Below are positions 9,339 through 9,996 of a stretch of DNA of 64,000 nt, piece after piece; the first letter of the stretch is position 1, and each line of letters begins with the position of its first letter. Below the pieces are notes generated by a model. The model saw only the letters and a program-made list of their open reading frames with translations. It had not been told where the DNA came from and searched no databases. This stretch comes from Hymenobacter cheonanensis (GTDB lineage Bacteria; Bacteroidota; Bacteroidia; Cytophagales; Hymenobacteraceae), in contig NZ_JAUQSW010000002.1 of assembly GCF_030581075.1 (NCBI RefSeq), forward strand, positions 62,001 to 126,000, given 5' to 3'. The position numbers and the translations under genes are program-made.

Positions 9339-9368
9339 TTGCACATCTGGGGGCGGGCTCTATCTTTG
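9339..9368 (+). promoter_or_regulatory. Promoter of the SAM-riboswitch / metY transcript
   Basis: TTG at 9339-9341 and TATCTTTG at 9361-9368 are 19 bp apart, an exact match to the Bacteroidota housekeeping promoter. Transcription should begin near 9374, about 45 nt before the riboswitch aptamer. A GC hairpin (9389-9394 with 9400-9405) followed by CAGTTTT lies between promoter and aptamer. Confidence 0.75.
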
Positions 9369-9415
9369 CGCTCACCAATCCGGTACTCCCCCGCAGCAGG
9401 CGGGGCAGTTTTAGT

Positions 9416-9536
9416 AAGTTTTATACAGAAGCGGCGAGAGATTAGGCTCTTTGACCCGCTGGCAACCTTCACCCGCTGAAAGGTGCCAATTCCTACCCCG
9501 GCAGCTGCCACGCGCCGCCCGGGGGTCTATAAACCG
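9416..9536 (+). ncRNA. SAM-I (S-box) riboswitch ahead of metY
   Basis: All four S-box helices can be drawn. P1 is GTTTTATA 9418-9425 with TATAAAC 9528-9534. P2 is AGCGG 9430-9434 with CCGCT 9456-9460. P3 is ACCTT 9465-9469 with AAGGT 9480-9484. P4 is ACCCCGG 9495-9501 with CCGGGGGT 9519-9526. The conserved core GGCAACC (9461-9467) and GGTGCCAATTCC (9482-9493) is intact, and the GA-containing kink-turn side (CGAGAGA) is in P2. The aptamer ends only 8-9 nt before the ATG of a short ORF at 9544 and 460 nt before metY. Binding of SAM should lower expression of the methionine genes. The expression platform is not obvious next to P1. Confidence 0.88.
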
Positions 9537-9543
9537 AGTACCC

Positions 9544-9684
9544 ATGGCACATCCGTTTTTCTTCGCTGCCCCCTCCTACTCCGCCACTGCCGTGCGCGGT
9601 TCCGGACACCTTGCGCTAGCCTCTTCGGCCAGCCCGGCCCCCACGTGCCAGCGAATGCGAATGTGCTGTTGTTGCCAAGGCTAA
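9544..9684 (+). CDS. Putative leader peptide ending in a poly-cysteine run (46 aa)
   Basis: Short ORF immediately after the SAM riboswitch, with ATG at 9544 and TAA at 9682. The final residues are RMRMCCCCQG: four consecutive Cys codons (TGC TGT TGT TGC, 9664-9675) just before the stop. A shorter nine-residue version could start at the in-frame ATG 9655. The rest (MAHPFFFAAPSYSATAV...) has no family. The Cys codons run into a hairpin (9674-9692) followed by CCTTTTCCC. This layout is like amino-acid attenuator leaders such as trpL or hisL. Poly-Cys upstream ORFs that sense cysteine are known in mycobacteria. Its role as a leader here is inference. metY begins 312 bp further on. Confidence 0.5.
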   Translation: MAHPFFFAAPSYSATAVRGSGHLALASSASPAPTCQRMRMCCCCQG

Positions 9685-9697
9685 GCCCTGGCCCTTT
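9674..9697 (+). terminator. Possible attenuator hairpin overlapping the poly-Cys codons
   Basis: GCCA-a-GGC (9674-9681) can pair with GCC-c-TGGC (9685-9692) around a TAA loop. CCTTTTCCC follows. The stem holds one mismatch and the T-run is short, so it would be a weak terminator. It includes the last Cys codon and the stop codon of the leader ORF. Confidence 0.35.
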
Positions 9698-9996
9698 TCC
9701 CTTCTTATCCTTTTGCGGGTACTTGCCTCTGCCAGCCGGCCCAGCCCCTGGATGAGGTGAACTGATGCGAATAGCTTAAAAACAAGTTGCTATTTATCAG
9801 ATTCTTACCTATCTGGCACGCGCTTTAGGAGGAAGTAAAAAGCCAACAGCACGGCGTTTCGACCAGCGCTTTTTCGCGCAGCTTCTACTTTTTTTAGCGC
9901 TAGCCCTTACCGCGCGGCGCCGGGCTACGGCCCCAGCAGCCCGCCTGCTTTTCCAACCTGATTTTCAGCAACAACTCTTTTTAACCTCCTAGCCTC
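9698..9996 (+). promoter_or_regulatory. Remaining 5' leader of metY
   Basis: No gene is seen in these 300 bases. TAGGAGG at 9826-9832 is the exact complement of CCTCCTA at 9985-9991, which lies six bases before the metY start, so a long-range pairing near the start codon is possible. A GC-rich inverted stretch (about 9914-9954) is also present. No second TTG-N19-TAnnTTTG promoter is evident. Confidence 0.35.

Follow-up and report, generated by a model that had tools for sequence, protein, structure and literature searches.

The poly-cysteine short ORFs of mycobacteria are reportedly leaderless, and are said, in work by Canestrari et al. from 2020, to be cysteine-responsive attenuators. Cys leader ORFs of actinobacteria are known, and those of Mycobacterium are described, in the part of the source used here, as having no conserved intrinsic terminator, with Rho raised as one possibility (PMC1262725). 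Riboswitches can also act on, or together with, the translation of a uORF: according to the excerpts available, this is the case for Mbox-rv1805A of M. tuberculosis, where Rho-dependent termination is involved (PMC12810186), and for the B12 switches of metE and ppe2 in the same species, which have riboswitch-controlled uORFs (PMC11260477). Tandem leaders in which a SAM-I riboswitch is combined with a T-box(Met) precede metX and metY and are predicted, in the sections of that paper drawn on, to follow a NOT A AND B logic (PMC9481103). Ribosome-mediated attenuation has been proposed for the uORFC-8-2 motif, which contains tandem Cys codons and is located before cysS in Rhodobacterales (PMC8632094), and a flavobacterial transcriptome provides clues for leader-peptide attenuation at amino-acid operons (PMC9723704); both accounts are again cited from portions of the papers.

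In the open-access literature searched (subscription papers are mostly outside it), we found little on leader-peptide control in Bacteroidota, nothing on Hymenobacter together with a riboswitch, and no recognisable report of a SAM-I riboswitch joined to a Cys/Met leader peptide.

The metY leader in the window

A leader with both of these parts precedes metY in the window, i.e. the whole stretch of 64,000 nucleotides of Hymenobacter cheonanensis DNA that was analysed (source genome G000: 5.36 Mb, 22 contigs); its elements are collected in Table 1. By its score, which exceeds the gathering cut-off of 44.4 bits over the full length of the model (E 2.6e-13), the RF00162 match is a predicted SAM-I riboswitch. 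A sequence-only reading of this DNA had already described a promoter, a complete SAM-I aptamer at 9416-9536, an ATG eight bases past it that opens a 46-codon ORF with four Cys codons near its end, and metY as the gene downstream, and all of these were recovered here, with its coordinates correct to within one or two bases. The promoter pattern TTG-N19-TATCTTTG is presumably that typical of the phylum Bacteroidota; a TAnnTTTG box is located 9-16 bases upstream of the 5′ element in all 106 relatives examined, and a sigma-70 promoter scan detected no promoter.

The window metY shares 96% identity with that of a named Hymenobacter relative. The three genes behind metX probably encode a sulfonate-type importer (presumed substrate), and are presumably part of the same operon as metY. 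A tandem with a T-box was considered and rejected, since the matches that attain the gathering score in the window are limited to two SAM riboswitches and one tRNA.

Table 1. Coordinates of the leader elements, downstream genes and second S-box in the window
Feature	Position	Strand	Details
Bacteroidota-type promoter, TTG-N19-TATCTTTG	9339..9368	+	sequence reading; TTG 9339-9341, TATCTTTG 9361-9368
P0 5′ arm, GGTACTC (potential helix)	9382..9388	+	near predicted transcript start
Small GC hairpin	9389..9405	+	between P0 arm and S-box
Predicted SAM-I (S-box) aptamer, RF00162	9418..9535	+	66.6 bits, model 1-108 of 108
P0 3′ arm, GAGTACC (potential helix)	9536..9542	+	P1-to-uORF-start interval
Leader uORF, 46 codons + TAA, ending RMRMCCCCQG	9544..9684	+	ATG 9544-9546, TAA 9682-9684
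CGA ATG CGA ATG TGC TGT TGT TGC	9652..9675	+	Met, rare CGA and Cys run; Cys 9664-9675
Stop-codon hairpin	9674..9692	+	stop codon is the loop; 7 pairs, one A.C mismatch
C/T-rich, G-poor tract	9693..9714	+	candidate Rho-loading site or weak terminator tail
metY, O-acetylhomoserine sulfhydrylase	9997..11382	+	TIGR01326 677.6 bits (cut-off 495.1), PF01053
metX-like homoserine O-acetyltransferase	11518..12546	+	TIGR01392 best NCBIfam match, 356.3 bits (below cut-off 500); PF00561
NMT1-type binding protein	12605..13636	+	PF09084
Importer permease	13639..14493	+	PF00528
Importer ATPase	14665..15399	+	PF00005
Second S-box, before metH	35282..35390	-	70.6 bits

Conservation and distribution of the Cys-rich uORF

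Among 120 Hymenobacter genomes searched, 113 had a metY match at the cut-off and the leader was read in 110 (left out: G014, partial; G100, near a contig end; G060, sequence not fetched). S-boxes at these loci were recognised by their core pattern (110/110), while the covariance model was run on the window, on 20 other loci and genome-wide, with a match in 120/120 Hymenobacter genomes. An ORF opens just behind helix P1 in all 110 leaders, and its last 16 codons hold 3-8 Cys codons, most commonly seven, in 106 of them; the remaining four (L024, L179, L180, L186) have an ORF of 46-50 codons in the same place with two Cys near the end (e.g. RMRMCWGCRM). In the 106 leaders the uORF is 40-63 codons long and starts 46-61 nt behind the GGTGCCA core and, without exception, 10-13 nt behind a P1-like TATAA-type strand. 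Their stop codons are TAG (66) and TAA (40), never TGA. This comparison had been set beforehand, and the case that would have counted against two-signal control, namely a kept riboswitch with loss of the Cys codons or of the frame, did not occur: the uORF persists, with the same frame and start position and with a Cys-rich end, throughout the genus and in many other Bacteroidota. Clustered Cys codons near the end of a uORF, conserved and upstream of sulfur genes, are what is expected of a poly-Cys attenuator.

Dinucleotide shuffles were used as a control for the 93 of 110 leaders in which S-box and metY are less than 520 nt apart (the 17 with at least 520 nt were left out). At least five Cys codons among the last 16 were found in 79/93 leaders and 10/4650 shuffles, and at least four in 88/93 and 108/4650; at least three were found in 93/93, a threshold that alone says little because 677/4650 shuffles also pass. 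None of the 93 reverse complements passes the Cys criterion. Substitutions in 28 close pairs are distributed over codon positions 1, 2 and 3 as 136, 114 and 186, which reads as a mild coding signal and suggests a uORF body that is weakly constrained and free to drift. At Cys codons over the whole uORF the close pairs show 12 synonymous and 23 non-synonymous changes, and therefore no strong synonymous excess. A protein-database search with the uORF peptide of one relative returned no homologue.

The tails of the uORFs differ in composition from their bodies. Specifically, Cys makes up 38% and Met 11.4% of the Hymenobacter tails vs 1.2% and 0.9% of the bodies, and in 45 uORFs from other genera the figures are 37.8% and 9.0% vs 0.8% and 1.2% (for some of these 45, the body percentages come from an ORF that opens further upstream, at an ATG within the S-box); the Cys percentages of the tails are partly a product of selection, because ORFs were picked for a Cys-rich end, while those of Met are unaffected. 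Codon choice is also unusual: TGT accounts for 369 of 652 Cys codons in the 106 tails but 3 of 93 in 30 long ORFs of the window, and CGA for 185 of 296 Arg codons but 8 of 894, an excess that is a clue and no test, because all background ORFs come from a single genome and the tails share common ancestry. Such rare codons are consistent with slow decoding at the end of the uORF.

Some leaders are richer in Met. In three Sphingobacterium loci (L083, L084, L087) the ORF behind the S-box is Met-rich instead of Cys-rich and contains MSMRMRMH. Short ORFs with MMMCC-type tails and no S-box by pattern were also seen in other members of the class, before a PAPS-reductase gene (L347), a PF01053 gene (L348), a nitrite/sulfite-reductase gene (L362) and, by eye, a metY-like gene (L358). 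Together with the Met codons in the tails, these two kinds of leader suggest, though no more strongly than that, that Met charging is an additional input. Of 198 genomes, 26 contain the pattern ATGATGATGTGYTGY and one contains its reversed control. Sulfur genes follow five of these 26 places, among them the Hymenobacter cysH leader; most of the remainder seem unrelated. A search for TGYTGYTGYTGY across the source genome was swamped by repeats, with 157 places (81 + 76) vs 11 + 19 for the reversed control.

The source genome has five S-boxes, located before a homoserine dehydrogenase (PF00742), an amino-acid permease (PF13520), cysH (PF01507, NF002537), metH (PF02574, PF02965) and metY, and only those of metY and cysH are accompanied by a Cys-rich uORF. 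S-box leaders of cysH with a Cys-rich uORF are found at L003 and L256-L275. A search of 30 genomes gave 20 with a cysH match, and their leaders hold at least three Cys codons in 20/20 cases (shuffles 180/1000), at least four in 14/20 (36/1000) and at least five in 7/20 (7/1000). The Cys-rich frame opens in 19/20 at a GTG, presumably the start codon, 3-12 nt behind a P1-like strand, L260 being the exception. These leaders differ from the metY leader in sequence and are alike in make-up; no P0-like arm was seen in them by eye. The metH S-box leaders hold a Cys uORF in 0/30 cases by any threshold of at least three, four or five Cys. Behind the metH S-box of the window, a GC hairpin with a T-rich tail is visible by eye and resembles an ordinary terminator platform. 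Since metY and cysH have the uORF and metH does not, it accompanies two genes that import or fix sulfide and not every S-box. The genome also encodes a cysK that scores above the NCBIfam cut-off, so metY is probably not the sole sulfide route.

Outside Hymenobacter, 71 named metY loci were considered; these are the best metY matches kept, an uneven sample, and two had too little upstream sequence. The 69 testable loci comprise 45 with S-box and Cys uORF, 21 with the S-box only, none with the uORF only and three with neither. Carriers include Pedobacter, Mucilaginibacter, Pontibacter, Rufibacter, Chryseolinea and Olivibacter, as well as MAGs of Saprospiraceae and Flavobacteriales. The uORF starts -11 to +14 nt from the end of P1 in 45/45 carriers, this end having been estimated from the core pattern for 30 of them, and likewise in the 69-locus tally. 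In 20 of the 21 S-box-only loci an ATG is located -5 to +9 nt from the estimated P1 end, and 19 of these open at least 18 codons. The nucleotide context differs in the other genera, where the Cys/Met codons, the open frame from a P1-adjacent start and the nearby stop are kept. Among the best 30 S-box loci of a phylum sample, 25 come from one family (f18) and only L241 carries a Cys uORF before the gene (ending MMCCCCCCMPFGA), which weakens any claim for the whole phylum; a Cys hit in L248 is located behind the gene start and looks like chance. For cysH, where 158 genomes across the phylum gave 57 matches and 30 loci were read (six of them unreadable by motif), S-box and Cys uORF were found together only in the source genome; at L328, which is the same place as L347, there are Met/Cys-rich uORFs and no S-box by pattern.

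Across relatives, the comparison argues for the two-signal control by SAM and Cys-tRNA charging that the sequence-only reading had proposed. The riboswitch adjoining the uORF start, the Met enrichment, the second leader at cysH and the breadth of the arrangement had not been part of it.

A possible two-step gate and its alternatives

The riboswitch helix is positioned right at the start of the uORF, as expected where a riboswitch controls one: the end of P1 is 8 nt from the start codon in the window, so that a P1 stabilised by SAM would fall within the ribosome landing site. In Hymenobacter, P1 may be extended by a potential 7-bp helix, P0, between GGTACTC near the predicted transcript start and GAGTRCC, the heptamer that precedes the ATG in most loci. 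The helix can form with its full seven pairs in 89 of 106 loci and with at least six in 99; one column toggles between T-A and T-G (52/47) and another changes from C-G to G-C in four. Cognate arms pair better than permuted partners (fraction 0.0015; 40 random loci of the 106), with a mean of -11.4 kcal/mol vs -4.7 at a control site, although covariation support is modest because the helix is nearly invariant and both arms are shared by related species. Outside Hymenobacter the same cognate-vs-permuted test does not support P0 (0.72 for 16 Cytophagales-type loci and 0.25 for 23 Sphingobacteria-type loci).

At the other end of the uORF, the 5′ arm of the stop-codon hairpin takes in the second and third bases of the final Cys codon together with both codons that separate it from the stop. 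Hairpins at this place have a mean z of -1.6 in the Hymenobacter leaders (62% below -1) vs -0.3 (26%) at a control site, and at about +20 to +50 past the stop the 106 relatives average 0.40 C and 0.17 G. The sequence-only reading had seen a hairpin with a T-rich tract as in classic attenuators; the hairpin and tract are indeed present, but weak, and no intrinsic terminator is conserved. More specifically, a scan of 9300-10050 gave two hairpin/T-tract sites vs 1.1 expected in shuffles, and neither RNAalifold (85 representatives of the 91 Hymenobacter leaders with 150-260 nt behind the uORF, where the alignment is poor and no structure emerged) nor clade-wise folds revealed a conserved terminator or antiterminator, the latter giving only clade-specific hairpins in too few sequences for a covariation claim. 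Mucilaginibacter leaders, for instance, have an ACGT-type hairpin. In four of seven Cytophagales-type loci (L057, L061, L063, L094) pairing is possible between the Cys codons and a GCAACA some 20 nt past the stop, possibly as a clade-specific attenuator helix.

An extra gene is located between leader and metY in 16 of 110 Hymenobacter genomes (L008, L009, L010, L011, L014, L015, L018, L020, L023, L027, L117, L135, L159, L174, L181, L182); its product is AhpC/TSA (PF00578) in L008 and looks alike by eye in the others, and the ORF of L159 has only 122 codons. From the uORF stop, the distance is 195-237 nt to the inserted gene (13 of 16 measured) and 159-312 nt to metY where there is no insert (312 in the window). 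Because the spacing is alike despite the inserted gene, the leader seems to act on whichever gene comes first, which favours, without proving, an action on transcription.

These elements may be combined into a two-step gate, a reading towards which we lean slightly: SAM would close the start of the uORF and, at low SAM, the stalling of a ribosome starved for Cys (and likely Met) would give readthrough into metY. With SAM bound, P1 (lengthened by P0 in Hymenobacter) would hide the uORF start. With SAM low and Cys plentiful, a ribosome would finish the uORF and leave, upon which the stop-codon hairpin and C-rich tract would bring transcription to an end, either through Rho or by acting as a weak intrinsic terminator. 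If Cys is scarce as well as SAM, a ribosome stalled on the Cys run would cover the 5′ arm of the hairpin, and metY, metX and later genes would be made. The stall signal would be uncharged Cys-tRNA, likely also Met-tRNA, and the resulting logic NOT SAM AND NOT Cys. Counted in favour of this gate are the conservation of the uORF, its specificity for metY and cysH, codon usage, P0, the stop hairpin and the inserted-gene spacing; counted against it are the lack of a conserved terminator, the P0 result outside Hymenobacter, the weakly constrained uORF body, the S-box-only loci, L260 and the missing peptide homologue.

The same parts could also work independently, with the uORF as an ordinary Cys attenuator and the S-box acting alone on transcription or RNA folding, the uORF start being ungated. 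Each part is known singly elsewhere, Met/Cys leaders do stand before sulfur genes where no S-box is found by pattern (L347, L348, L358, L362), and the stop-codon hairpin with the C-rich tract could suffice for attenuation. However, no terminator fits into the 8 nt between P1 and the start codon, the uORF start keeps its position relative to P1 in 106 Hymenobacter loci and 45 others, and P0 would pair exactly the bases preceding the uORF start; two independent controls are therefore considered unlikely, though far from negligible.

Very Cys-rich peptides can bind metals, and there is said to be published work on a copper-sensing nascent protein. The peptide itself, nascent or released, might accordingly sense metal or redox state in place of Cys-tRNA charging. 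A Cys run at the very C-terminus would, however, still be inside the ribosome at the point of decision, and the number and spacing of its Cys vary (CCCC, CCCSACCCCC, CCMCICCPCCC). Met is also enriched alongside Cys, the codons include the rare TGT and CGA, and sulfur genes lie downstream. A metal-sensing peptide was set aside as first choice on the C-terminal, variable Cys run, the Met co-enrichment and the downstream genes, and its probability is put as low. Quite improbable, too, is that the ORF is untranslated and its Cys/Met codons arise incidentally from a conserved RNA or DNA element (CGAATGCGAATGTGCTGTTG). The stretch is conserved at the nucleotide level in Hymenobacter, synonymous sites included, and the GCAACA pairing would suit such an element, but other genera keep the codons and open frame in a different nucleotide context, TGT and TGC interchange in close pairs with no strong synonymous excess, and the Hymenobacter cysH leader has a like make-up in a different sequence. 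A chance ORF behind an ordinary S-box has a practically negligible probability and was rejected on the leader comparison and the shuffle test (above all at five Cys codons or more), with the metH leaders again speaking against it.

A wider claim is held tentatively, at just short of an even chance: that these are widespread three-input leaders of Bacteroidota, in which SAM would gate ribosome entry at the uORF start, charging of Cys-tRNA and Met-tRNA would set the effect on transcription, and the terminal codons would be tuned by lineage (mostly rich in Cys, but in some Sphingobacterium rich in Met). Such leaders would parallel the SAM-I/T-box tandems. If the gate exists, (i) the regulated product of a SAM riboswitch would be the start codon of an amino-acid-sensing leader peptide and not an enzyme, (ii) the riboswitch would serve as the entry gate for the sensing ribosome, joining aptamer and codon-level sensing of the same pathway in Bacteroidota, and (iii) the cell would read its SAM and Cys (likely also Met) supply at one spot before making homocysteine. 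The leader is also a concrete system for asking how attenuation works without a conserved intrinsic terminator, and it bears on how metY leaders are annotated in many genera and cysH leaders in Hymenobacter.

Relation to known systems

The Hymenobacter uORF resembles the Cys leaders of mycobacteria and other actinobacteria, as far as the part of the account used describes them (PMC1262725), in being a short ORF with Cys codons near its stop, before sulfur or cysteine genes and, as in Mycobacterium, with no conserved intrinsic terminator. It differs from the mycobacterial poly-Cys ORFs, which are reportedly leaderless, in lying far into the predicted transcript and right behind a SAM-I riboswitch: in the window the promoter box ends at 9368 and the uORF begins at 9544, with the S-box between them (transcript start predicted). 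Met codons are moreover co-enriched here, and the phylum is different.

As in the Mbox and B12 cases of M. tuberculosis, a riboswitch would control, or work with, the translation of a uORF; those uORFs are not described as amino-acid sensors in the excerpts available (PMC12810186, PMC11260477), whereas the Hymenobacter uORF ends in codons for the amino acids of the pathway itself. The uORFC-8-2 motif, in the portion of its description drawn on, has two Cys codons, an intrinsic terminator and no riboswitch, and belongs to another gene and phylum (PMC8632094). The SAM-I/T-box tandems, by the sections of the source used, likewise bring SAM and an amino-acid-charging signal into one leader before the same genes (PMC9481103); in the tandems tRNA(Met) is read by a T-box RNA as second sensor, a role that a Cys/Met uORF would have in Hymenobacter.
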